Positions 15,024 to 46,176 of a DNA stretch of 64,000 bases are shown here, piece after piece. Source of the stretch: an uncultured Ectothiorhodospiraceae bacterium (lineage in GTDB: Bacteria > Pseudomonadota > Gammaproteobacteria > UBA6429 > Thiohalophilaceae); assembly GCA_947259575.1 (NCBI GenBank), contig CAMYMU010000002.1, positions 1 through 64,000 of the forward strand, read 5' to 3'. The number at the start of each line of letters is the position of its first letter. The first letter of the stretch is position 1. Made by a program: the position numbers and the translations under genes. The notes under the pieces are model-generated. The model was not told where the DNA came from. It did no database searches and saw only the letters and a list, made by a program, of their open reading frames with translations.

Positions 15024-16001
15024 ATCTTTAACTTATTTAAAAGAAACGCAACCTCGAATCATCTTGTTGGTATCGGCCTAAGTGATGAGGGGATGGCCTT
15101 CGCCCATTTAACGCGTAATAACGATGCCTATCAACTTGAGCACGTCGATTTTGCTGCGGTGACCTCGTTGCATGAGATGGAAGAGAATCTTTCAGAGTGG
15201 GTGAAAGAATTTGACGTTAAAGGTTCGATGGCAAATTTTGTCCTGGCCCAATCACAGGCCGGTATATTTCTTACCGAGGCACCCGAGGTTGAAGACAAAG
15301 AGTTAAACAAGGCGATGCGCTGGAAGCTTAAGGACAACACGGAAGTCGACCTGGAAAAATCAATTGTTGATGTATTTCCAATACCAGGTCAGCGTGAACG
15401 TGGCCGCCAACCGATGGCCTATGTTGTCAGCGCCGATAAAAAATTACTTAAAGGCTATGTCGCCCTGATAGACAAGAGCCATCTCAATTTAAAGAGTATT
15501 GATATCACCGCATTGGCACAACGTAATATTGCTAGCCACATGCAGGAAGATGAAAACGGTGTCGCCTTTTTATCGCTGTACGCGAATAGTGGACTACTTT
15601 CCCTTTCGCGTAAGAGTAATCTTTATCTTGCGCGGGACCTGGATGTTGGTCACAAAAACTTTGCGAGTCAAGAAGCGAGTCAGGCTTCGGGTGGGTTGCA
15701 AGTAGAAGGTTTGCCGGCGGCGACCCAACAAACCCTAGAACAGATCGTTCTGGAAGTACAACGCTCGATGGACTACTACGAGCGTTATTTTGCGCAGCCA
15801 CCTATTCAGGCGTTAGTGCTTGCACCTTTACCGACACCGGTACCAGGTTTGGTCGATGAAATTTCGAATCAATTAGGCATGAAGGTACGCGAGTTGGATC
15901 TGAGTGACATTATTGATACCCAACAATCTATTGAACACAGTTTGCAATCTAATTACCTGCCTGCGATCGGCGCTGCGTTGCGCATGACAATGGCTTCTTG
16001 A
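15024..16001 (+). CDS. mshI: MSHA-type pilus assembly protein MshI (PilM-like), probable ATC start
   Basis: MshI is the cytosolic actin/FtsA-like (PilM-type) protein of the MSHA pilus machine. The first ATG (15093) would remove the first strand of the fold, LVGIGLSDEG, which aligns with the opening strand of PilM proteins. Upstream of it the frame stays open to a TGA at 15009 but contains no ATG, GTG, TTG or CTG. A perfect AGGAGG (15013-15018) lies 5 bases before ATC at 15024, giving IFNLFKRN at the start. I therefore place the start at ATC; 15093 is the conservative alternative. It is the first gene of the mshI-mshN operon. Confidence 0.75.
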   Translation: MFNLFKRNATSNHLVGIGLSDEGMAFAHLTRNNDAYQLEHVDFAAVTSLHEMEENLSEWVKEFDVKGSMANFVLAQSQAGIFLTEAPEVEDKELNKAMRWKLKDNTEVDLEKSIVDVFPIPGQRERGRQPMAYVVSADKKLLKGYVALIDKSHLNLKSIDITALAQRNIASHMQEDENGVAFLSLYANSGLLSLSRKSNLYLARDLDVGHKNFASQEASQASGGLQVEGLPAATQQTLEQIVLEVQRSMDYYERYFAQPPIQALVLAPLPTPVPGLVDEISNQLGMKVRELDLSDIIDTQQSIEHSLQSNYLPAIGAALRMTMAS

Positions 16002-16016
16002 GCGTAAAGCGTAAAA

Positions 16017-16616
16017 ATGCAACAAATTAACTTATTACAGTCTGGGCTCCGCTCGAAGGAAAGTCGCCTTGCCGCCAACAAGGTAATGACTTACATCGGT
16101 GTATTTGTAGCGGTGCTGGGTGTGATTTCCGCATTTCAATGGTGGCAACAATATAGTCAGCAACAAGCATTGCTCGAGGCAAAGCAAGAGAAAGATGAAT
16201 TGCTTAAACAAATTCAGTTCGTCTCGACAGAAATCGCTGCGGTTAGTGATGACTCAGAGTACAAAAATATTCTAGTAACAAAAGAGCAGGAGCTTAAAAA
16301 TAAAAATCTGGTCTTAAGTGTTTTGTCAGGTCAAAAGTTTGGTAATACAAAAGGTTTCGCGGATCAATTTACGGGTTTATCAAGGCAACATGTTGACGGT
16401 TTATGGATCACACAGCTTGATATTCATGCCGGCGGTGAAAAGCTAAATTTACAGGGTAGTGCTTTTAGTCCTGGCCATGTCCCAGACTATCTACAAAGAC
16501 TGGGTAAGGAACCAAGTTTTAATGGTGTGGAGTTCAAGACATTTTTAATGGAGCGTGATGAAGGCTCAAGCCGAATTGACTTTGATATTCGTTCGACGCA
16601 GAAGGAAGCAGGCTAA
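16017..16616 (+). CDS. MSHA pilus assembly protein, PilN-like (second MshI-type gene)
   Basis: The 199-residue inner-membrane protein starts with QQINLL, the PilM-binding motif of PilN proteins, followed by one membrane segment (about 25-42), a coiled coil (about 45-95) and a C-terminal ferredoxin-like domain (HVDGLWITQLDIHAGGEKLNLQGSA). It should join MshI on the cytosolic side with the MshJ protein. It begins 15 bases after mshI and its stop overlaps the mshJ start (TAATG). In MSHA loci this position is usually called mshI2 or similar. Confidence 0.82.
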   Translation: MQQINLLQSGLRSKESRLAANKVMTYIGVFVAVLGVISAFQWWQQYSQQQALLEAKQEKDELLKQIQFVSTEIAAVSDDSEYKNILVTKEQELKNKNLVLSVLSGQKFGNTKGFADQFTGLSRQHVDGLWITQLDIHAGGEKLNLQGSAFSPGHVPDYLQRLGKEPSFNGVEFKTFLMERDEGSSRIDFDIRSTQKEAG

Positions 16617-17317
16617 TGCGTGAAAAATTAGCTGAACTCAAGGAAAAATACGAGGATCTGAGTTTTCGTGAGCAGCTCATGCTTATTGCAACACTTGTAG
16701 CGGCGATGGCATTTATCTGGTTTCAGTTTATTAGCGAACCCATGTACCTGCAAACAAAACAAGCTAGCACAGAATTAGAAAAGCAACAGCAGGCGGTGGA
16801 AAAGTTGCGGGCGCAACATCAATCGCTGATTGCGCGACGTGCAAGCGATCCTCACCGCGACCTTAAAGACAGAATTGTCCTGATCGATCAGGATCTTGTG
16901 AAGATAAATAAAAAGCTTGCTGACAAGTTTCATGGGCTGATTGAACCCAAGCAAATGGCGCAGGTCCTCGAATCAATTTTAAAACAACACAAGGATTTAA
17001 AGTTGTTAAGTGTACGCAGTCTTGCCTCCGAGCAACTCATTCAAGCTGAGCCAGTCGGCGATGAAAATGAAGCAAGTGAAGTTCGTGGCAATGATGACGA
17101 ACAGCAAGCGGCCAGGGTTGAGGTTTTTCGCCATGGCTTACAAATTAAATTCGAGGGAAATTACCTGGCGACTTTGGATTACCTTAGAACCCTGGAAGGT
17201 CTGGACTGGGAGTTTTACTGGGACGCGGTGCAACTCGAGGTGACCGAATATCCAAAATCTACCGTACTGATCACGGTACATACATTGAGTCTGCGCGATT
17301 CCTGGATCGGCGTATAG
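16616..17317 (+). CDS. mshJ: MSHA biogenesis protein MshJ (PilO-like)
   Basis: A 233-residue inner-membrane protein with one N-terminal membrane segment (about 20-38), a coiled coil (about 45-100) and a C-terminal alpha/beta domain, the PilO layout. With the PilN-like protein it forms the periplasmic scaffold linking the inner membrane parts to MshK and the secretin. An acidic insert (about residues 145-160, EPVGDENEASEVRGNDDEQQ region) is a likely loop. It overlaps the previous gene by one base. Confidence 0.85.
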   Translation: MREKLAELKEKYEDLSFREQLMLIATLVAAMAFIWFQFISEPMYLQTKQASTELEKQQQAVEKLRAQHQSLIARRASDPHRDLKDRIVLIDQDLVKINKKLADKFHGLIEPKQMAQVLESILKQHKDLKLLSVRSLASEQLIQAEPVGDENEASEVRGNDDEQQAARVEVFRHGLQIKFEGNYLATLDYLRTLEGLDWEFYWDAVQLEVTEYPKSTVLITVHTLSLRDSWIGV

Positions 17318-17327
17318 GGATCAGGTT

Positions 17328-17678
17328 ATGCACACAATGAATATTAAAATTACGCAAATTTTGCTGCTGATAGTGACAATATTCTGTCACGGTAGCCTTA
17401 TCGCCGAGGTGTTGAAGGACCCTACACGCCCGCCCAGCCACCGTTACAGCGGGATCGAGGCTCCTGGCACAAAAGCTGCACCTCGATGGATATTGTCGTC
17501 GACATTGATCGCGCCTGCGCGCCGTCTGGCGACGATTAATGGCAAAACTGTGGGGGTGGGACAAAAGATTGGAGGTGCAAGGGTAATGGAAATTAACCCT
17601 TCGCATGTTGCTTTGCGGGATGGTGATAAGGACATCATTCTGGAATTGTTACCCACGGATATAAAAAGAGCACATTAG
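17328..17678 (+). CDS. mshK: MSHA biogenesis protein MshK (PilP/GspC-HR-like)
   Basis: The 116-residue protein has a signal peptide (cleavage near LIAE, residue ~27), the DPTRPP motif common to MshK and related secretin partners, and a small beta domain (LIAPARRLATINGKTVGVGQKIGGARVMEI) typical of the homology region that contacts the secretin N-domains. It should connect the MshJ scaffold to MshL. It starts 10 bases after mshJ and ends 3 bases before mshL. Confidence 0.83.
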   Translation: MHTMNIKITQILLLIVTIFCHGSLIAEVLKDPTRPPSHRYSGIEAPGTKAAPRWILSSTLIAPARRLATINGKTVGVGQKIGGARVMEINPSHVALRDGDKDIILELLPTDIKRAH

Positions 17679-17681
17679 AAA

Positions 17682-19412
17682 ATGACAGGACGGTTTATAA
17701 AAGTAGTTGTAGCTTGGAGTATGCCAGCGTTTTTGCTTGCCTGTAGCACAACTACCCCTCCCCCGGATACACGCACCTACAATGCGATTGATAGTGCTCT
17801 GGATCAGGGTATCAGTGGTAATCAACAAATTGCTGCACTGCAACCTCCGCCAGAAACCATCAGTGATGCACTACTCCCACGTATCCAATTAGATTTACCT
17901 GGGCAAACTGGGATTGATACTGAACCACGCTTTGATATTAAAGTGAACCGAACCAATGCACGGCAGTTTTTCATTGGCCTGGTCGAAGGTACACACCACA
18001 ACATGGTGGTTCACCCAAAAGTACGCGGCAAGATAACCCTTGATTTAAAAAATGTCAGCATTCAGGAAGTGATGGATGTAGTGAGGGATGTGTATGGTTT
18101 TGATTATGAGAAATCAGCAACTGCCTATCATGTGTATCCGAATGCGATTCGTACAAAAATTTTCAAGCTTGACTATCTCGCAGTTAAACGAGCAGGTAGT
18201 TCAAAAGTAAGAATTAGTTCTGGCCAGGTATCGCAGGGAACGTCGGGTAGTTCGGATAATAATAATTCAGAATCGGATGCATCGTCTACCAGAGAAACCT
18301 TAGCCGCAAGCAGTATCGATACTGTCAGTGAGTCTGATTTTTGGACGGAGTTACGTGCGTCATTAACAGCAATTGTCGGCAACAAGAAAGGCCGAAGTGT
18401 GGTTGTGAGTCCACAGTCTGGTGTGATTGTTGTAAGGGCGATGCCAGATGAATTGCGTTCAGTCGATCGTTATCTGAGTACTACTCAGAATATTATGCAT
18501 CGTCAGGTGTTACTTGAAGCAAAAGTGATTGAAGTGACCTTGAGCGATGGATTCCAGAGCGGTATTAATTGGGCTGGTTTGAAAGAAAACGGTAGTAGCT
18601 CTATCTTATTAGGTCAGACAGGTGGTGGTAGCCTGTTTGATAATGGTACCAGTATCATCGATGGTAACACCGGTAATTTAAATCCAGGTGCACTGTCGCC
18701 AGTCGATGGTACGGCAACCTCTGCATTTGGTGGTATCTTCACCGCGGCGTTAAATCTTAGTGGTAACTTCGCGGCGTTTATAGAGTTGCTAGAGACACAG
18801 GGTGACGTCCAGGTATTATCCAGCCCACAAGTTTCAACCATGAATAACCAAAAGGCGGTTATTAAAGTTGGTACAGATGAATTCTTTATTACCGATGTAG
18901 AAACTAACACTAACACCAGTACTGCAACGACTAATACCGAAAACAATGTTGAGTTAACACCCTTCTTCTCGGGTGTGGCGTTGGATGTGATTCCACAAAT
19001 TAGTGAAGATGGTTCGATTACTTTACATGTACATCCAACCGTGGTCGACGTAACCGAGAAGATTAAGAACCTTTCAATCTCAGGTTCGACCACACTTAGC
19101 GTACCGTTGGCGGTGAGTTCGATACGTGAGTCAGATACCATTATTCGCGCTATGAGCGGCCAGGTGGTGATCATTGGTGGCCTGATGAAAAATAAAACGG
19201 TCGATAATGAAAACTCGATTCCCTTCTTTGGTGACATCCCTCTGATTGGTGGTCTGTTCCGTCATAACCAGGAGCTGACAGTGAAGAGTGAACTAGTGAT
19301 TCTACTGAAGCCGACCGTGATTGAAAGCTCACAACAGTGGGCGGATGAATTAAAGAAAAGGCGGGACAATATCAAACGCTACCGGCAGCGGCCATTAGCT
19401 CGAGAGAATTAA
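17682..19412 (+). CDS. mshL: MSHA outer-membrane secretin MshL
   Basis: A 576-residue secretin forming the outer-membrane channel for the pilus. A lipoprotein signal ends in LLACS (Cys near residue 21). Then come an STN/N0-type domain (FDIKVNRTNARQFFIGLVEG), an N1 repeat, a Ser/Asn-rich linker (about 185-205, SSDNNNSESDASS) and the C-terminal secretin domain with the VPLLGDIP-type signature here as IPFFGDIPLIGGLFR (about 520-534) and the KSELVILLKPTVI end. It lies in the middle of the msh operon. Confidence 0.94.
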   Translation: MTGRFIKVVVAWSMPAFLLACSTTTPPPDTRTYNAIDSALDQGISGNQQIAALQPPPETISDALLPRIQLDLPGQTGIDTEPRFDIKVNRTNARQFFIGLVEGTHHNMVVHPKVRGKITLDLKNVSIQEVMDVVRDVYGFDYEKSATAYHVYPNAIRTKIFKLDYLAVKRAGSSKVRISSGQVSQGTSGSSDNNNSESDASSTRETLAASSIDTVSESDFWTELRASLTAIVGNKKGRSVVVSPQSGVIVVRAMPDELRSVDRYLSTTQNIMHRQVLLEAKVIEVTLSDGFQSGINWAGLKENGSSSILLGQTGGGSLFDNGTSIIDGNTGNLNPGALSPVDGTATSAFGGIFTAALNLSGNFAAFIELLETQGDVQVLSSPQVSTMNNQKAVIKVGTDEFFITDVETNTNTSTATTNTENNVELTPFFSGVALDVIPQISEDGSITLHVHPTVVDVTEKIKNLSISGSTTLSVPLAVSSIRESDTIIRAMSGQVVIIGGLMKNKTVDNENSIPFFGDIPLIGGLFRHNQELTVKSELVILLKPTVIESSQQWADELKKRRDNIKRYRQRPLAREN

Positions 19413-19416
19413 TATA

Positions 19417-20322
19417 ATGTATCAACAATTTTTTGGCATTAAAGAAATTCCTTTTACTCTCTCGCCTGATACGAGTTATTTTTTTGCTTATGGCCATTAT
19501 GCAAATGCCTTGAATACCTTGTTGGTAGCCCTGAGAACCGGTGAAGGTTTTATCAAAGTAACAGGTGAAGTCGGTACCGGTAAAACACTGTTGTGCCGCA
19601 AGCTGATGAATACTCTGGGTGACAAATTCCAGTTAGTCTACATCCCTAATCCACAACTCTCATCATATGGATTACAGGTTGCCCTGGCGGAAGAACTTGG
19701 TCTGAAAATCACACGTTACGTTCATCGTTTAAATAAAACGATTAGCGATAAATTGCTTGAACTGGCTGCCGAAGGTAAGCGCGTTGTTTTGTGTATAGAT
19801 GAAGCACAGGCGATGCCAGAAGAGACTATGGAGTCATTGCGGCTGTTGACGAATTTAGAGACAGAAAAATCCAAACTGTTGCACGTAGTGCTATTTGGTC
19901 AGCCGGAACTCGATGAGCTGCTAAACAAGAAATCAGTCCGACAGTTAAAGCAACGCATTACTTTTTCCTATCAGTTACAACCATTAGAGCGCCAGGGAAT
20001 GGATGCTTATATTGTTCATCGTTTGGTGGTAGCTGGTTTCAGGAACGGCATGATTTTCGATGATGCAGCGTTAACACGTTTGTTTGTCGCCAGTCGGGGT
20101 ATACCTCGGTTGGTTAATATCTTGTGTCATAAATCACTAATGGTTGCCTATGGACAAGGCACACACCATATCGATGAGGCTATGATCAGAATGGCGATTA
20201 GTGATACCGAAGATACTCAGTTGAGTCGACGAAAAGCGCCATGGTGGCGACGCATGGTAGCAACATTAGCGACTGTTGCCGTGTTGGCGTCGGTCTCTAG
20301 TTTTGTGGTGGCAGTGAGTTAG
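19417..20322 (+). CDS. mshM: MSHA biogenesis ATPase MshM (ExeA-like)
   Basis: The 301-residue AAA ATPase of the ExeA/GspA type has Walker A GEVGTGKT (about 49-56), Walker B VVLCIDEAQ (about 121-129), a sensor region LLHVVLFGQPELDELL and a single C-terminal membrane segment (about 281-299). ExeA-type proteins help insert or assemble the secretin through the cell wall, usually with a peptidoglycan-binding partner. It starts 4 bases after mshL. Confidence 0.93.
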   Translation: MYQQFFGIKEIPFTLSPDTSYFFAYGHYANALNTLLVALRTGEGFIKVTGEVGTGKTLLCRKLMNTLGDKFQLVYIPNPQLSSYGLQVALAEELGLKITRYVHRLNKTISDKLLELAAEGKRVVLCIDEAQAMPEETMESLRLLTNLETEKSKLLHVVLFGQPELDELLNKKSVRQLKQRITFSYQLQPLERQGMDAYIVHRLVVAGFRNGMIFDDAALTRLFVASRGIPRLVNILCHKSLMVAYGQGTHHIDEAMIRMAISDTEDTQLSRRKAPWWRRMVATLATVAVLASVSSFVVAVS

Positions 20323-20326
20323 CCCG

Positions 20327-21463
20327 ATGAGCCTGATTAATCAAGTTTTAAAAGATATCGATGAGCGACGTTCTGCGGATTACAGTGACAATAAAACTGA
20401 TCTAGATGATCTACATTTCTCGCATATTCCAAAGCGAAAATCGAAAGCCAAACCTATTATTATCACGTCTATTGCAAGCCTGTCGCTTGCAGCAATTATT
20501 GTTGTCGCGTTTTATTTTTTACAACAGGGCCAGCCTGATACGAATTTGGCGACTAGCAATGCCGTAGCAGAAGATAGTGCAGCAAAACCAGAACTAACTG
20601 TGGTGGCAAAAGCAACTGCACCAGTATCAGCGCCAATACCGGCGTCAAGAGAAGTAAGCCAAGCTATCGCGAAGCCAAAATCAGAGAAGCAAAAATCAAC
20701 AAACCAACAATTAGCAACAAAAGCTCACAGCGCAGCAAAACCCGTAACAAGTACTACGGCATCAGAAGTTGATAACGATGTTGCTTCAGAAGAAGCAATA
20801 GCAGTATCTGATCTCGCTGAAGAGTCTGATGATACTCCGGTCAAGTTTACACGACAGGTAGTACCCATGCGGCCGGAGCAAAAAGCAGAGCTGTCTTATC
20901 AAAATGGCTATGATCATCTGCGTTCGCAGCGTCATCGTCAGGCAGAGCGGTCATTACGATTGGCATTAGTTGCAGAGTCTGGTCATATAAAAGCACGTGA
21001 ACTTCTATCCGGCATTTATATAAAACAAGGTCGTTGGATTGAAGCCAGTGAGTTGTTGCGTGAAGGATTGACCTATTCTCCAGAGCACCGGACATTTAGC
21101 AAATTGTATGCACGCGCGATGATGCAATTAAATCAGGATGCACAGGCGATCGCCGTTTTGAAAAAATATGCACCAGCGGTTGAAAGTGATCCTGACTACT
21201 TCGCAATTTTAGCCGCACTTTACCAGCGCCAAAATCAACATGGCCATGCCGCTGACCTATATGCGAGACTAGTCAGTGTGAATCCCAACAAAGGAGTGTG
21301 GTGGGTTGGCCTGGGTATTTCACTTGAGGCGATGGGAAGAAAACAAGATGCCCTGCAAGCCTATGGGCATGCCCGCAAAACCGGTAACCTCCATAATGAA
21401 GTCGCCCGCTTCGCCGACAATCGCCTAGTTGCCCTTGAAGAGATCAATTTCCCCTCTGAGTAA
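20327..21463 (+). CDS. mshN: MSHA biogenesis TPR protein MshN
   Basis: A 378-residue single-pass protein. It begins MSLINQVLKDIDERR, the conserved MshN start, followed by a membrane segment (about 47-66), an Ala/Lys/Pro-rich periplasmic linker (about 75-185) and TPR repeats (about 190-370). It is thought to act as a periplasmic assembly scaffold. It is the last msh gene here; 243 bases later ntrB begins, so mshE, mshG and pilin genes must be elsewhere if the pilus is functional. Confidence 0.9.
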   Translation: MSLINQVLKDIDERRSADYSDNKTDLDDLHFSHIPKRKSKAKPIIITSIASLSLAAIIVVAFYFLQQGQPDTNLATSNAVAEDSAAKPELTVVAKATAPVSAPIPASREVSQAIAKPKSEKQKSTNQQLATKAHSAAKPVTSTTASEVDNDVASEEAIAVSDLAEESDDTPVKFTRQVVPMRPEQKAELSYQNGYDHLRSQRHRQAERSLRLALVAESGHIKARELLSGIYIKQGRWIEASELLREGLTYSPEHRTFSKLYARAMMQLNQDAQAIAVLKKYAPAVESDPDYFAILAALYQRQNQHGHAADLYARLVSVNPNKGVWWVGLGISLEAMGRKQDALQAYGHARKTGNLHNEVARFADNRLVALEEINFPSE

Positions 21464-39810: not shown

Positions 39811-41055
39811 ATGCGGTGGTTATTTGGAGCGCTATTTATATTACTGATCGCCGTATCACTCAGCTTACTTGCCTATCAAGACCCAGGTTATGTGCTAATA
39901 GCGTGGGGTTATAAAACAGCTGAATTGAGTCTATCTCTGTTTATCATCTTAGCCGTATTAATCTTTGTCACTATCTATATAGTGATGCGACTGATGGTAA
40001 ATGGCTGGGGTATGCCCAGTGCGTTTAAGGCCTGGAGGCAAAGACAAAGACAGCAGCGGGCACGACGTGATACAAACAAAGGACTGATTGAGCTGGCACA
40101 GGGCAATTGGACGCACGCAGAACGTTATCTAGTCAGGCATGTCTCAGACAGCGAAATTCCTCTTATCAATTATTTGTCCGCGGCCAGGGCTGCGCAAAAG
40201 CAGGATGTTCCTGAGCGACGTGATAACTATCTGGCGCTTGCACATAAAAATATGCAGGGCGCCGGTTTTGCAGTACAGCTTACTCAAGCTGAGTTGCAGC
40301 TGGTACACGGCCAGCTAGAACAGGCACTAGCGACCCTGGTGCAACTGCACTCGAGTTCACCAAAACACCCTCATGTGTTGTTTTTACTGGCCCGCATTTA
40401 CGAGATGCTAAGAAGTTGGGGTGATCTGAAGAAAATTATTCCTGACTTGAAAAAACATAAGATCATCAGCAAAGAACAGCTAGCAGAACTTGAGCGTGTG
40501 GTACATCGAGAGATGATTACGATTGCCACCCAACGCGGTAAGCTCGAGCAACTTAAGGCATCGTGGCAACATGTACCAAAGCCGTTGCGCGCTGATTTAA
40601 CAATGGCGCAACACTATACGCGTTGCTTGCTGACACTTGATGCGCACAATGATGCTGAGGCCGTTGTCAGAGAGACATTAAAACGTAACCGTGATGATCA
40701 ACTTGTCTATCTCTATGGCCTGATTGAATCAAGCGACCCAGACCGACAGCTGGCAACCGCAGAAAACTGGTTAAAGGGTAATGAAAATAACCCGGTATTG
40801 TTATTAACCCTGGGCCGTTTGTGTAAGCGTAACAAGCTCTGGGGTAAGGCACAGTCTTATCTTGAGGCCAGTATTGGGGTGCAAGCACGCTCAGATTCTT
40901 ATAAAGAACTTGGCCAGTTAATGGAACAGCTGGAAGAACCGGATAAGGCATCCAGTTACTTCCGGCAGGGTTTGTTGCTCGCGCAGGAAGAAAAGCTGGA
41001 CGACATGCTATCGGTCACACCTACAAGCTTGCCTATTTTGCCCTCGGTCGTCTAA
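39811..41055 (+). CDS. hemY: HemY-like TPR membrane protein
   Basis: A 414-residue inner-membrane protein of the proteobacterial HemY_N family (not protoporphyrinogen oxidase). Two N-terminal membrane segments (about 2-20 and 38-62) are followed by TPR repeats, with WTHAERYLVRHV and HPHVLFLLARIYEMLRSWGDLKKIIPDLKKHK typical. Its role is linked to late heme synthesis but not defined. It is followed after 7 bases by the PilN-like gene, so the trio downstream is probably co-transcribed with the hem genes. Confidence 0.92.
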   Translation: MRWLFGALFILLIAVSLSLLAYQDPGYVLIAWGYKTAELSLSLFIILAVLIFVTIYIVMRLMVNGWGMPSAFKAWRQRQRQQRARRDTNKGLIELAQGNWTHAERYLVRHVSDSEIPLINYLSAARAAQKQDVPERRDNYLALAHKNMQGAGFAVQLTQAELQLVHGQLEQALATLVQLHSSSPKHPHVLFLLARIYEMLRSWGDLKKIIPDLKKHKIISKEQLAELERVVHREMITIATQRGKLEQLKASWQHVPKPLRADLTMAQHYTRCLLTLDAHNDAEAVVRETLKRNRDDQLVYLYGLIESSDPDRQLATAENWLKGNENNPVLLLTLGRLCKRNKLWGKAQSYLEASIGVQARSDSYKELGQLMEQLEEPDKASSYFRQGLLLAQEEKLDDMLSVTPTSLPILPSVV

Positions 41056-41062
41056 GACCCTT

Positions 41063-41572
41063 ATGCAGAGCATATTAGCATTTATAAAAAATCATAAGTT
41101 TATTGTTCTCATCACCCTCCTTGGGCCTCTGTTCTATAATTCCTGGCTCTATTACGATTACAGGCAAAAAGTAGCGGCGCAACGCGAAGTTAATGCTTAT
41201 CTCGAGACGGAAATTTTTGAGACTGAAAGATGGTTAGAGCCGATTAAAGACTTAGACAGGCTGAAAGCTGAGTTGCTTGCAAGAATAGAAATCTCACAAG
41301 GTCTGACCGGCCCAAATCGTAAAAAATTTCAATTGTTAGTTTTGCTGTCAGCTTTACCAGAAGGCATTAGTTTGCAGGTATTAAAGATGCAAGAGGCTGA
41401 AGTTAATATTTCTGGTACCGCAACCTCTACGGCACCACTAGCACAATTGGTAGATACATTAAATAAAACATCGATATGTGAATCGGGCAAGGTGTATCCC
41501 AAACCAGGTAAGAAACCGGGTAGTTTTTTAATAAATTGTTATTTTGGTTATGGCTATTACGATGACATTTAA
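41063..41572 (+). CDS. PilN-like inner-membrane protein
   Basis: The 169-residue protein has one N-terminal membrane segment (about 13-32), a helical coiled stretch (about 35-85) and a small alpha/beta domain whose core LLVLLSALPEGISLQVLKMQEAEVNISGTA pattern is that of PilN C-terminal domains. Unlike PilN it starts directly with MQSILAFIKN and lacks the INLLP motif that binds PilM, and no pilM gene is near. It is read as a scaffold protein of an envelope machine. Genes for PilO- and PilP-like proteins follow with overlaps. Assignment rests on fold pattern and order. Confidence 0.6.
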   Translation: MQSILAFIKNHKFIVLITLLGPLFYNSWLYYDYRQKVAAQREVNAYLETEIFETERWLEPIKDLDRLKAELLARIEISQGLTGPNRKKFQLLVLLSALPEGISLQVLKMQEAEVNISGTATSTAPLAQLVDTLNKTSICESGKVYPKPGKKPGSFLINCYFGYGYYDDI

Positions 41573-42161
41573 AAATATCGTTATAGCCATAGTCGTTGTC
41601 TACATCAACTTTGCCTTATACCTGGCCGGATATGTTTTCCTTAATGTAACGATTGTAGACGATTTAGAGTTATCAGAACGTAATACTTACTATTTAAAAG
41701 AAGACTTCAAGGTAGCCTGGAATAAAAGAGTAAATAGGGATGACTACGAGCTTCAGCAACGTGAAATTATTGAGCGGTTAACAAAGTTGATGAAGAATCT
41801 GCCTGACAGCCTAAATAAGGAACAATTGAAAGAATCTGTTGTTAAAAGAAAAGATGACTTCAAACTTGAAATAAAGGACTTTAGCTACCAGACAGTGACT
41901 TCCTTTGAGTTTTACTCTATTCATGAAATAAATATGCAATTAATCGGTCACTATAAGGATATTACGAAATTCATGCATGACTTGGAAACCGGTAGTGGCA
42001 TCATTATCGCAGCATCTGAGTTTTCCATGTCAGCGATCGAAGGCGATAAAATTCAACTCACAGGTATTTTTCATGGTTACCATTATCATGCGGAGCCGGA
42101 TACCAAAGAGATTTATGAAAAATGGGTGAGAGAATATAAAGACTATGATCAAGCCTTATAA
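41562..42161 (+). CDS. PilO-like inner-membrane protein
   Basis: One N-terminal membrane segment (about 6-27), a helical linker (about 30-85) and a C-terminal ferredoxin-like domain (INMQLIGHYKDITKFMHDLETGSGIIIAASEF and IQLTGIFHGYHYH) match the PilO layout, in which the domain pairs with PilN. The start at ATG 41562 (MTFKNIV) overlaps the previous stop by 11 bases; ATG 41550 or TTG 41544 are alternatives. 199 residues from 41562. It overlaps the PilP-like gene by 17 bases. Confidence 0.65.
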   Translation: MTFKNIVIAIVVVYINFALYLAGYVFLNVTIVDDLELSERNTYYLKEDFKVAWNKRVNRDDYELQQREIIERLTKLMKNLPDSLNKEQLKESVVKRKDDFKLEIKDFSYQTVTSFEFYSIHEINMQLIGHYKDITKFMHDLETGSGIIIAASEFSMSAIEGDKIQLTGIFHGYHYHAEPDTKEIYEKWVREYKDYDQAL

Positions 42162-42441
42162 AATAGCGGCGTTTTCATGTGTATTATTTTTATGTGCCTG
42201 CTCGCAACCAGAAGATGTAGTCGATGCAGATGATGGGATGGACATGGCATCAGTGAAACAGTTTGTGAGTAATACAAAAGAAAGTGATAAGCACCCGGTG
42301 GAACCAATGCCTGATATAAAACCAGGTAAGGACTTGCCAATATTGACTAACGAACCCTTTCGATTAATTGCGCCATTAGTTAAAGAAGACTGGCATAAGC
42401 ATGGTAGCGAACTAAAAGGTAAAGGAAGAAGTAGCCGTTGA
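42145..42441 (+). CDS. truncated PilP-like lipoprotein
   Basis: A 98-residue lipoprotein with signal and lipobox LCAC (Cys near residue 19). The segment VKQFVSNTKESDKHPVEPMPDIKPGKDLP (about 38-66) carries the PilP N-terminal motif (E-P-[ML]-P-[DE]-I-K-P), the part that binds PilN-PilO. The beta-sandwich domain that contacts the secretin PilQ is absent; the protein ends about 30 residues later with a basic tail. No pilQ follows. The end directly abuts the convergent anti-sigma gene. Confidence 0.68.
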   Translation: MIKPYKIAAFSCVLFLCACSQPEDVVDADDGMDMASVKQFVSNTKESDKHPVEPMPDIKPGKDLPILTNEPFRLIAPLVKEDWHKHGSELKGKGRSSR

Positions 42442-43212
42442 TCAGGGCTTCGTTAGTGTCTCGCCCGGATAGTATTCAGGATAGAGTTTAATATATTGCT
42501 CAGCCAATTTGTCTTTTCCGGCTTTGTATAAAGTGGATACTTGCGTTTGCCACTGTTGACGTGTCCAGGTCTTAAGTACTTCAGCAGGTAGGACTTCATT
42601 TTGTGCACCGGCATTAGTTGACTGCATCATGTCACGCAGGTGGGGGGGCAGCTCGAAGTCGGTAGGTTCCTCTGCGACCTGTAATGTACTTTGTGTTGGG
42701 CTTTGTAGCGTTGGTGCAGGTTTCTCGCTTACAGATTCTCTTGGTAGTCTGGTATCAGTTTGTTGCATCGGTTTAGTTTTAATAGCTGGGATTGTCTCTG
42801 TTTTTTGTGTCTCAGGTTGAAGGACAATAGTATCTTCAACGCTCGCGGTCTGTTGTGGTGGTGTAACCCCATCCTGAGGGAGTGGCAATGCTTGAGGCGC
42901 GGTGTCTATGTCCTTTTTCGCGATCTGATTAGTTTCGTCAATATTCTGAAAATCAACAAAGAAAACCAGGCTGACAGTAATGATCACAGTTGCGGCGATT
43001 GAAAGCGGCACCAACCAGACATCTTTGCGGACGACTGGACGCTCGTTGTTGGGGGGATTGTTTTCTGCTTCACGCGCCATGCGCTTTATGGCAAAGGCAA
43101 GGTGTTCCGGCGCTTTAAGATCCTTTTCTTCAGCATAGGTTGCTGATAGATCAGTTTCACCATTTAGATATTGTTCAATATCTTCATCGCTGATTTGAGT
43201 TTTATCATTCAT
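42442..43212 (-). CDS. probable anti-sigma factor (single-pass membrane protein)
   Basis: The 256-residue protein has an N-terminal cytosolic part (about 1-66) beginning with an acidic helix as in anti-sigma domains, one membrane segment (about 69-88), a Pro/Gln/Thr-rich periplasmic linker (about 100-195) and a short helical end (ADVLKTWTRQQWQTQVSTLYKAGK region). No zinc-binding HxxxCxxC motif is present. The assignment comes mainly from its 4 base overlap downstream of an ECF sigma gene. It could equally be a structural partner. Confidence 0.65.
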   Translation of the reverse strand: MNDKTQISDEDIEQYLNGETDLSATYAEEKDLKAPEHLAFAIKRMAREAENNPPNNERPVVRKDVWLVPLSIAATVIITVSLVFFVDFQNIDETNQIAKKDIDTAPQALPLPQDGVTPPQQTASVEDTIVLQPETQKTETIPAIKTKPMQQTDTRLPRESVSEKPAPTLQSPTQSTLQVAEEPTDFELPPHLRDMMQSTNAGAQNEVLPAEVLKTWTRQQWQTQVSTLYKAGKDKLAEQYIKLYPEYYPGETLTKP

Positions 43213-43781
43213 GCGAAACGCCTCATTCCACTACGCAGTCTTTGCAATGCATATCGCAAACGACTCTTTACAGTGTCTCGAGAAACACTCATTACTTCAG
43301 CGATCTCGACCAGTGTCATCCCGGCTTCTTCATGCATTAAAAATACATCTCGTTGTGCTGCCGGTAATTTTTCTAGCAATGTCAGCAAGTGGTTATATTT
43401 ACTTTGTACATCAGCATGATGCTCAATGCTCTTATTGCTCTGCTCCTCAATGATCATCTCATCCTGTTGCTCATCATAAGAGACGATATCCGATTTTGTA
43501 TTTTGCTTACTTCGGTAAAAGTCGATTAACTTGTTGTGCGCAATATGAAACAGATAAGTCTTAAACTTTGCTTTAACCGTGTAGTTCTTACGATGTTTAA
43601 TCAGTGCAGCCCAGGTCTCCTGGAATATCTCTTCAGCGATGGCAAAATTACCGGTCTGGCGGGCCAGGTATCGATACAAAATATCCTTAAATCGATTGAA
43701 CAGCTGATCGAAGGCCTGCAGATCACCATCGCGATAAATTTCCATCAACTGCTCATCAGACTTTTCTTCAGACAAAAGCAC
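43209..43781 (-). CDS. ECF sigma factor (sigma-70 family, RpoE-like)
   Basis: A 190-residue factor with region 2 (FDQLFNRFKDILYRYLARQTG and AEEIFQETWAALIKHR, YLFHIAHNKLIDFYR) and region 4 (LEKLPAAQRDVFLMHEEAGMTLVEIAEVMSVSRDTVKSRLRYALQRLR helix-turn-helix area), without region 1 or 3. It starts with GTG at 43781. It shares an operon with the presumed anti-sigma gene and is divergent from a secreted trypsin-like protease, which suggests control of an envelope response. Its target promoter sequence is not recognisable in the 225 base gap. Confidence 0.92.
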   Translation of the reverse strand: MLLSEEKSDEQLMEIYRDGDLQAFDQLFNRFKDILYRYLARQTGNFAIAEEIFQETWAALIKHRKNYTVKAKFKTYLFHIAHNKLIDFYRSKQNTKSDIVSYDEQQDEMIIEEQSNKSIEHHADVQSKYNHLLTLLEKLPAAQRDVFLMHEEAGMTLVEIAEVMSVSRDTVKSRLRYALQRLRSGMRRFA

Positions 43782-44006
43782 AACATAATTCTGCTAATTC
43801 GAGAAGCGCTAAGCCTACCATACCCGGTCTTGTGAGCAGAATGCCTGGCAAGCAAAAGACCATCCAAATTAGATCCTTTAGCCGTATTTATGTCCGCTAT
43901 ATGGTTTTCAACGCCGTATTCCGCATACTGGGTCTAAATACTTGCTGGTTTTTCAGGTAAAATAGGCTTAGACAGCTAACTCAATGATTTATTTAGTAAA
44001 AACAAT

Positions 44007-45332
44007 ATGTTAAGAGTAAATACGCATTGCTTCACTAACTTCCAACACCATTTATTGAGTGTGTGGGTACTTTGCGCCAGTGCCCTGCTATATAGCAGTT
44101 CCTCGCATGCGGCTGACGATAAGCTAGAACAAGAGACCTCGGTTTATTCAGCGATGAGCATGGGTTCAGGTTGGGCCCTGACTCAACGCCATATCGTTAC
44201 CAATTACCATGTGATTGATGGCATGCAAAATCTCAGACTAGTGACACCAGAACAAAAAGAGATAGCGGTTGAAGTTGTGCTGGCAGATAAGAAAAATGAC
44301 CTCGCGATTTTAGCGATTCGTAATAAGAATATTCAGATCACACCGCTACCTCTGGCCTTGACCAAGCCACGCCTTGGCAGCCAGGTCTTTACGATCGGCT
44401 ATCCTCACCCAAACCTAATGGGAACCAGTCCGAAACTCACCAGTGGTTTCATCAGTGCGACCAATGGCCTGGCCGACGACCCACGTACCTTTCAGGTCTC
44501 GGTGCCAGTGCAGGCAGGTAATAGTGGTGGACCATTGCTTAACATGCGCGGCGAAGTGGTCGGGGTGATCACCTCAAAACTCAGTGCGCAAAAAATGTTT
44601 GAGTGGACCGGCGATATTCCACAGAATGTTAATTATGCGATCAAAGTTAATCATCTTAGTTCGTTGATCAGTGAACTGGAAACAGATGAACAGGTAAAGG
44701 CAGGTAGTGGTCACCAGGAACAAAACCTGGAATCACTTGCGGAAAAGATCGTGGATTCAGTGATCATTGTGGCGGGTGATGGTGATCAGCGTGATAGCGA
44801 GCAAAGCCACGAATTATTCAGTACCCAACAGCATCATGACCAACCTAAAGTAGAGAACAAGTCAACGATAGTTGTTTATTCTTTTGCTGAACCAGGTAAT
44901 TATGATTTACTGGAAGAGATAAATGGTTCTGATACAGTGGCAGATTACTCGGACAACACGGTTAATGTCCTTGAGCAACAATTGAAACAGCAGTTTGGTG
45001 GCAACATAAAATTTGTCTCGAGAGGTGGTAAGGAGGTCAGCAAAATTTTTTACCAACTCAAGGATATTAATTATAGTAAGGCTCTGTGCAATAAACATAG
45101 CGCCAGTAATATTGTTGCGAGCTATTCTGAAAATGCCTCCGGTCATGGCACACACTTTCGTAATGTAACTTATAGAATGATTGATTGTGTAACCCTGAAA
45201 GAGTTTATCAAAGGTTACTATATCGAGCGAGATGAAATTAACGATCGATTTGGATATGAAGTGGCGCTATACACAACCTTTAAAGATTTTCTAATTAAAA
45301 CCCCGCCGTATGTAAGCTGGGTTAGCCAGTAA
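44007..45332 (+). CDS. secreted trypsin-like serine protease (S1C type) with unknown C-terminal domain
   Basis: A 441-residue periplasmic protein with a signal peptide (cleavage near SSHAAD, residue ~36). The chymotrypsin-like domain (about 45-215) shows His in TNYHVIDG, Asp in KKNDLAIL and Ser in AGNSGGPLLN (about 170-179), the DegP/HtrA-type triad. No PDZ domain follows; residues 230-441 match nothing I recognise. Divergence from the ECF sigma/anti-sigma pair suggests a link to that regulon. It ends at a strong terminator. Confidence 0.85.
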   Translation: MLRVNTHCFTNFQHHLLSVWVLCASALLYSSSSHAADDKLEQETSVYSAMSMGSGWALTQRHIVTNYHVIDGMQNLRLVTPEQKEIAVEVVLADKKNDLAILAIRNKNIQITPLPLALTKPRLGSQVFTIGYPHPNLMGTSPKLTSGFISATNGLADDPRTFQVSVPVQAGNSGGPLLNMRGEVVGVITSKLSAQKMFEWTGDIPQNVNYAIKVNHLSSLISELETDEQVKAGSGHQEQNLESLAEKIVDSVIIVAGDGDQRDSEQSHELFSTQQHHDQPKVENKSTIVVYSFAEPGNYDLLEEINGSDTVADYSDNTVNVLEQQLKQQFGGNIKFVSRGGKEVSKIFYQLKDINYSKALCNKHSASNIVASYSENASGHGTHFRNVTYRMIDCVTLKEFIKGYYIERDEINDRFGYEVALYTTFKDFLIKTPPYVSWVSQ

Positions 45333-45385: not shown

Positions 45386-45964
45386 CTACCAGTGTCTCTT
45401 GCTCTTTGTGGTACGACAGGCGCTTGCGTGGCGACCACGTTGCTTACCAATTTTACCCGTGACTGGATCGATGTCTGTGTTAGTGCGGACATTAGTGGCT
45501 TCCAGGGTAAGTATTGATTCATCAGCTGACCAGTCAAACACAGTTTGTAAAGGACGATTAGCACGACCCTGTTGTGGTATCAGATCGGCAATCCGCACAT
45601 TCGCGGTTTGACGGGCGTCCAGGCCATTATCAACAGCACTGATAACGCCATTATATGAGGCTGGGATTCCACTGACATCAGAATCAAACAGAATCGCACC
45701 GGTTGCACTATAGACGCGAACACGATCTAGGTAGATGGTTCCTGCATCTGAAAGATTGCGGATAACGTAGGTGCTACGTTGAATTTCTGTACCGCCGTTA
45801 CGGACATAGTAGGCACCACCGCAGCTCACTGTGCCCTCAATGGCTTTTCTGCCTTTGTCTGCGGCCGCGGCATTCGCTGTCGACTGAATAGCCATACCTG
45901 CAATAAGTCCACCGATTAACACACCTGAAATTGCTTTTTTTGAGTTAACTAACATTTGTTTCAT
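45386..45964 (-). CDS. secreted protein of unknown function
   Basis: From ATG 45964 (MKQMLVNSKK) the 192-residue protein has a signal peptide (cleavage near ANAAAA, residue ~32), then a beta-rich domain with a cysteine near its start and motifs TYVIRNLSDAGTIYLDRVRVY and LDARQTANVRIADLIPQ. The C-terminus is basic (KQRGRHASACRTTKSKRHW). The ORF extends 8 codons upstream but the later ATG follows a better ribosome site (gggaga). No family is recognised. The strong stem-loop at 45337 ends it. Confidence 0.6.
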   Translation of the reverse strand: MKQMLVNSKKAISGVLIGGLIAGMAIQSTANAAAADKGRKAIEGTVSCGGAYYVRNGGTEIQRSTYVIRNLSDAGTIYLDRVRVYSATGAILFDSDVSGIPASYNGVISAVDNGLDARQTANVRIADLIPQQGRANRPLQTVFDWSADESILTLEATNVRTNTDIDPVTGKIGKQRGRHASACRTTKSKRHW

Positions 45965-46176
45965 CTCCCATATAAAGTTTTTAAACAAAATTTTTAAGTT
46001 GGCTCACTCTGGGATTATCACTCCCAAAGTTGTATTAGCCAGAATCGATTGCTTGATCTGGCTGTTGTATGGGCTTGAACGCCTGACTGGGGAGAGTGGG
46101 TCTAACTTTTTTTAGGGGTGTGGGGCTGACTGTATTGTGTTCAGTTGTATTTATACTATTAAATAGCTAAAACGCT

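Follow-up and report, generated by a model that had tools for sequence, protein, structure and literature searches.

A reduced set of PilN-, PilO- and PilP-like genes behind hemY in a gammaproteobacterium, a candidate scaffold uncoupled from pili

In type IVa pili, the N-terminus of PilN binds PilM, the N-terminal region of PilP (about residues 18-76) binds the PilNO heterodimer and the beta domain of PilP binds PilQ (PMC5805733). In P. aeruginosa, PilN and PilO dimerise both with themselves and with each other (PMC5805733). Homologues of these proteins are also found outside pili. In Campylobacterota, FcpM, FcpN and FcpO belong to a flagellar cage, in which PflD supplies a PilP-like loop and a PilQ-N1 domain (PMC11870540). 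Litorilinea aerophila encodes pilN and pilO without pilM, pilP and pilQ, beside the archaellum (PMC13319060). GspL/GspM of type II secretion and MshI2/MshJ of MSHA also have paired ferredoxin-like periplasmic domains and single membrane helices.

The window, which is the whole stretch of 64,000 nucleotides that was analysed, contains three overlapping genes for PilN-, PilO- and PilP-like proteins behind hemY, the last gene of hemC-hemD-hemX-hemY (Table 1). This reduced trio was pointed out in a preliminary description made from the sequence alone, and it is confirmed by the open reading frames, by Pfam and by a PilP profile. The genes overlap by 11 nt (PilN-like/PilO-like) and 17 nt (PilO-like/PilP-like), and all three frames are intact, while disrupted genes had been named beforehand as the mark of a decaying remnant. 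Only 7 nt separate the end of hemY from the first ATG of the PilN-like gene and no promoter-like match is found on the + strand in 40700-44100, including between hemY and the trio, so co-transcription of the trio with hemY is plausible. Open reading frames and Pfam place neither a PilM nor a PilQ gene at this locus, as described before, with hemY upstream and a convergent anti-sigma-like gene downstream, and the list of open reading frames has no ATPase or secretin gene there.

Table 1. Coordinates of the trio, its surroundings and related features (plain numbers are window positions)
Feature	Coordinates	Strand	Remarks	Basis
MSHA-type operon	15093..21463	+	PilM-, PilN-, PilO-, PilP-like and secretin genes	ORFs, Pfam
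hemY	39811..41055	+	last gene of hemC-hemD-hemX-hemY	Pfam HemY_N
Extra 5.1-kb segment	41056..46176		between hemY and FNR-type reductase; absent in congeners with the junction covered	
PilN-like gene	41063..41572	+	169 aa	ORF, Pfam PilN
PilO-like gene	41562..42161	+	199 aa; start alternatively 41550 or TTG 41544	ORF, Pfam PilO
PilP-like lipoprotein gene	42145..42441	+	98 aa	profile match to PilP N-terminus only
ECF sigma, anti-sigma-like and protease genes	42442-45332			
Secreted protein gene	45386-45988		200 aa; far end of the extra segment	
Canonical pilMNOPQ operon	G000:C2:163600-168598		same contig, separate from the trio	
pilQ 11-bp duplication	L034:6640-6690 (G000:C2 about 166640-166690)			
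Palindromic repeat of G003	L068:7817-7949			

The PilN-like protein matches Pfam PilN (PF05137) with 31.1 bits (cut-off 22.8) and has a transmembrane helix at its very start, followed by a coiled coil and a ferredoxin-like core. The INLLPWR start, which is near-invariant in the canonical PilN rows of the alignment, is missing. Before the first ATG, the stop-free stretch has no ATG, GTG or TTG and consists of hemY read in another frame. A misplaced start therefore cannot conceal the motif, and this check and the alignment both agree with the claim that the protein is without the PilM-binding INLLP start. A literature search found no paper on the INLLP motif with PilN. In the AlphaFold2 model (pLDDT 86.6) a long membrane and coiled-coil helix leads to the ferredoxin-like core, and in the PDB residues 83-165 resemble XcpY/PulL/EpsL (Z 9-10), PilO (8) and Thermus PilN 4bhq (6.7). 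The protein also has two cysteines, in ICES and INCY (window 41472-41543), which lie in or near neighbouring predicted strands and are not conserved among the aligned canonical PilN rows; a disulfide between them is possible.

The PilO-like protein, which is also built of a membrane helix, a coiled coil and a ferredoxin-like core, matches Pfam PilO (PF04350) with 47.7 bits (cut-off 22), and not T2SSM, unlike MshJ of the same window. Its alignment with canonical PilO reveals that the cytoplasmic LDxxNxGxWP segment ahead of the membrane helix is missing, and the frame has room for only few extra residues upstream. The AlphaFold2 model (pLDDT 88.2) again has a long membrane and coiled-coil helix that leads to a ferredoxin-like core, and its best Foldseek match is P. 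aeruginosa PilO 2rjz (E 7e-6). Structure prediction had been proposed as a check of the trio, and by AlphaFold, Foldseek and PDB comparison both proteins, modelled singly, match PilN/O-type folds. The models were guided by alignments of canonical PilN and PilO relatives and therefore cannot count as separate evidence of homology; the family matches themselves can.

The PilP-like protein has a lipobox (LCAC) and a PilP N-terminal segment with EPMPDIKP, and then stops. It has no Pfam match, including to the PilP beta domain (PF04351). Against the canonical PilP profile it scores 17.3 bits in residues 30-63 only, which contain SVKQFVSNTKESDKHPVEPMPDIKP, and this score is above all 2000 shuffles of the protein (best 13.5) and above every other ORF of the window. 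In the alignment the protein ends 38 residues past EPMPDIKP and the beta domain is missing. A lipoprotein that keeps EPMPDIKP without the secretin-binding domain, as was first read from the sequence, is thus borne out by profile, alignment and Pfam. NCBIfam gave nothing useful for the three proteins.

The trio shares with PilN-PilO-PilP of type IVa pili (P. aeruginosa, M. xanthus) the N-O-P order, the fold of N and O and the single membrane helix, and its lipoprotein, like PilP, carries the PilNO-binding segment. It differs from them by the absence of INLLPWR, of the PilO cytoplasmic tail and of the PilP beta domain, by the loss of core motifs, by the lack of adjoining pilM and pilQ and by an identity of about 20-25%. 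Like the trio, FcpMNO-PflD has PilN and PilO homologues outside pili in an own small operon away from pilus genes, and a partner whose PilP-like loop recalls the PilP-like piece of the trio; however, it is part of flagella in another phylum (Campylobacterota) and keeps a PilM homologue (FcpM), which has no counterpart at the trio locus by ORFs and Pfam, and PflD contains a PilQ-N1 domain as well as a membrane helix, both absent from the trio lipoprotein. The Litorilinea aerophila genes are also pilN and pilO homologues without pilM and pilQ, but they are archaellum-linked and from Chloroflexota, the PilO has LysM and a PilP-like piece is not reported. GspL/GspM and MshI2/MshJ are, unlike the trio, within full machines with an ATPase and a secretin, and the trio scores as PilN/PilO and not as GspL/GspM. 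The statement of the preliminary description that no system of this kind has been described was therefore too strong, since the detachment of PilN and PilO from pili is not new (PMC11870540, PMC13319060). What is new is that N and O come with only the N-terminal part of PilP and without their cytoplasmic tails, in a gammaproteobacterium that also keeps the full set.

Following the published contacts of PilN and PilP, the trio keeps the pieces for the N-O-P contact, while the missing pieces face PilM and the cytoplasm on one side and PilQ on the other. That the missing pieces are the contacts to the absent PilM and PilQ had been proposed before and stands for both; the loss of the PilO LDxxNxGxWP segment, which the proposal overlooked, is an addition. 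We consider, with a probability of about one half, that the trio is a set of diverged paralogues of the alignment complex of type IVa pili, reduced to its membrane-plus-periplasm core, which acts as a stand-alone scaffold. The PilN-like and PilO-like proteins would pair through their transmembrane and coiled-coil helices and their ferredoxin-like cores, and the short lipoprotein would lie along this pair by its EPMPDIKP segment, as PilP does. The trimer would stand on the inner membrane by two helices and a lipid anchor. Having lost the start that binds PilM, the cytoplasmic tail of PilO and the domain that binds the secretin, it would lack a known route to PilM or PilQ and would serve as an inner-membrane scaffold for a further partner. 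If the trio works, it would be a natural minimal alignment complex, in which N, O and the N-terminal segment of PilP would suffice as a unit, and one more case, with different losses, among the few PilN/PilO modules reused outside pili. As the contacts to PilM and PilQ are naturally missing together, the trio can also serve as a test construct as it stands.

The order hemC-D-X-Y is the rule in some 30 relatives and the trio is not part of it. Downstream of hemY, most members of the family have a convergent FNR-type reductase, at about 71-131 bp in the congeners G001 and G003; in G002 the contig ends at hemY and the junction is not covered. The extra segment holds the trio, a convergent pair of anti-sigma-like and ECF sigma genes, a trypsin-like protease and a secreted protein. 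Unrelated genes, namely HDOD proteins, a C-terminal-processing-type protease or a MerR-type set, fill the corresponding gap of other relatives, so the place is variable. No relative in this survey has a full pilMNOPQ behind hemY, an arrangement that had been expected if the trio were a remnant.

The PilO-like protein was searched in 58 relatives, an order-level set (40 genomes), 369 class genomes and 398 phylum genomes, as well as in plasmids, phages, viral contigs and GTDB contigs, the last both by protein and by alignment, and the PilN-like protein in the class genomes. Neither these roughly 860 genomes nor any of the other sets yielded a second copy of the trio, so that it is at present a singleton of one genome; class and phylum were sampled, so a rare relative could be missed, and a single-protein scan detects close relatives only. 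Every examined locus of the relatives is a canonical pilMNOPQ, except where the contig or the locus breaks off at one end. In a tree of concatenated PilN and PilO, the canonical proteins of the genome are placed among Gammaproteobacteria and the end branch of the trio is saturated (length 10), so own duplication and transfer cannot be told apart from the tree. Recent transfer has no clear sign, as the G+C of the trio is lower (0.36-0.41 vs 0.44 in the window), yet its codon use is like that of host genes. A mobile-element origin of the segment was also considered and set aside, as the window is without tRNA and its borders are without clear repeats.

The preliminary description had suggested a search for pilMNOPQ elsewhere in the genome, and a full set is found on the same contig, its pilQ being read as frameshifted after some 75 codons by an exact 11-bp tandem duplication (GGTAGTTTTAC) near the gene start. 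pilQ reads through in the relatives G002, G003 and G019, and the duplication may be a genuine slip, which could be reversible, or else a variant of the strain or of the assembly. The MSHA-type operon of the window is a separate machine, related to the trio. The genome has only two PilO-family genes, the canonical one and the trio copy, and three PilN-family genes; 11 matches above cut-off to the secretion ATPase family and five secretins show that it encodes several secretion or pilus machines. N/O-type proteins of the type IVa pilus, of MSHA or of further secretin/ATPase machines could pair with the trio proteins.

Of the columns with a conservation of at least 95% among the canonical proteins, the trio keeps 13/23 (PilO) and 10/22 (PilN), compared with 18/113 and 14/121 of the variable columns. 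The kept conserved positions are mostly of fold-holding kinds (L, P, F, Y, G, Q), and the motifs QSNARVS..MRN of PilN and LPRIVTLHD of PilO are lost. All three frames are open at about 75-80% protein divergence, and when 20% of the sites were hit in a neutral simulation, the open-frame probabilities of the three genes were 0.015, 0.005 and 0.10. Open frames despite extreme divergence, kept fold positions and lost pilus motifs together favour a repurposed module that would have been maintained for long with altered partners, rather than decay. The trio could also be a duplicated or acquired pilus operon which lost pilM, pilQ and the ends of its genes and is now decaying, and this is unlikely: the single genome, the lost motifs, the variable insertion place and the gene ends missing at the two outer flanks of the operon would fit it, but the frames are intact and tightly overlapping after great divergence, the structural conserved positions are preferentially kept, and trimming also affects the start of the PilO-like protein in the interior of the set, for which simple loss of both operon ends would not account. 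The loss of conserved motifs in both cores could mean a weakened function, and it is conceivable that the set ceased to function recently, or that it worked only in an unsampled donor. An assembly chimera or contamination is hardly credible, since the hemCDXY genes and the reductase flank the segment in the order of the relatives and the codon use matches host genes, even though the assembly consists of 70 contigs, its contamination is estimated at 1.2% and the trio has a lower G+C than the window.

Since PilN and PilO homo- and heterodimerise in P. aeruginosa (PMC5805733) and the cell encodes both pilMNOP and an MSHA operon, the trio proteins might instead mix with the canonical PilN/PilO or MSHA proteins, and the mixed complexes, lacking the PilM and PilQ contacts, would tune or block the alignment complexes of the cell's own pili. 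The trimmed copies could then be dominant-negative variants. Such a modulator is doubtful, because the trio is only 23% identical to the own PilN/PilO, a set of three genes that includes a PilP-like piece of its own suggests a self-contained complex, and the own pilQ of the genome is frameshifted as read. The stand-alone scaffold has precedents in the co-option of PilN and PilO outside pili in FcpMNO-PflD and Litorilinea. That it is a self-contained periplasmic N-O-P unit kept for a non-pilus envelope task we hold only tentatively, together with its possible link to the probably co-transcribed HemX/HemY; as nothing stands behind hemY in the congeners, the trio occupies a variable gap and its heme link is one of position. 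That the trio and the neighbouring ECF sigma, anti-sigma and trypsin-like protease form one envelope-stress device is very improbable: they lie in a common segment and abut directly at 42441/42442, but the sigma/anti-sigma/protease set recurs without the trio at other loci in the congener G003 and in G010, and the link was rejected on this basis.

Some minor features of the segment and of its counterparts were also observed. The secreted protein at the far end of the segment has no Pfam or NCBIfam match. The short gap between hemY and the reductase in G003 contains a long palindromic repeat (unit GGGGTCAGAGACG) resembling a small mobile repeat element. In the window, the ECF sigma factor is accompanied by a membrane anti-sigma-like protein and by a trypsin-like protease that carries an additional C-terminal domain. 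The G003 copy of this set (L232) adjoins genes for alpha-2-macroglobulin and heme A synthase; in the G010 copy (L233) the C-terminal domain of the protease is doubled.
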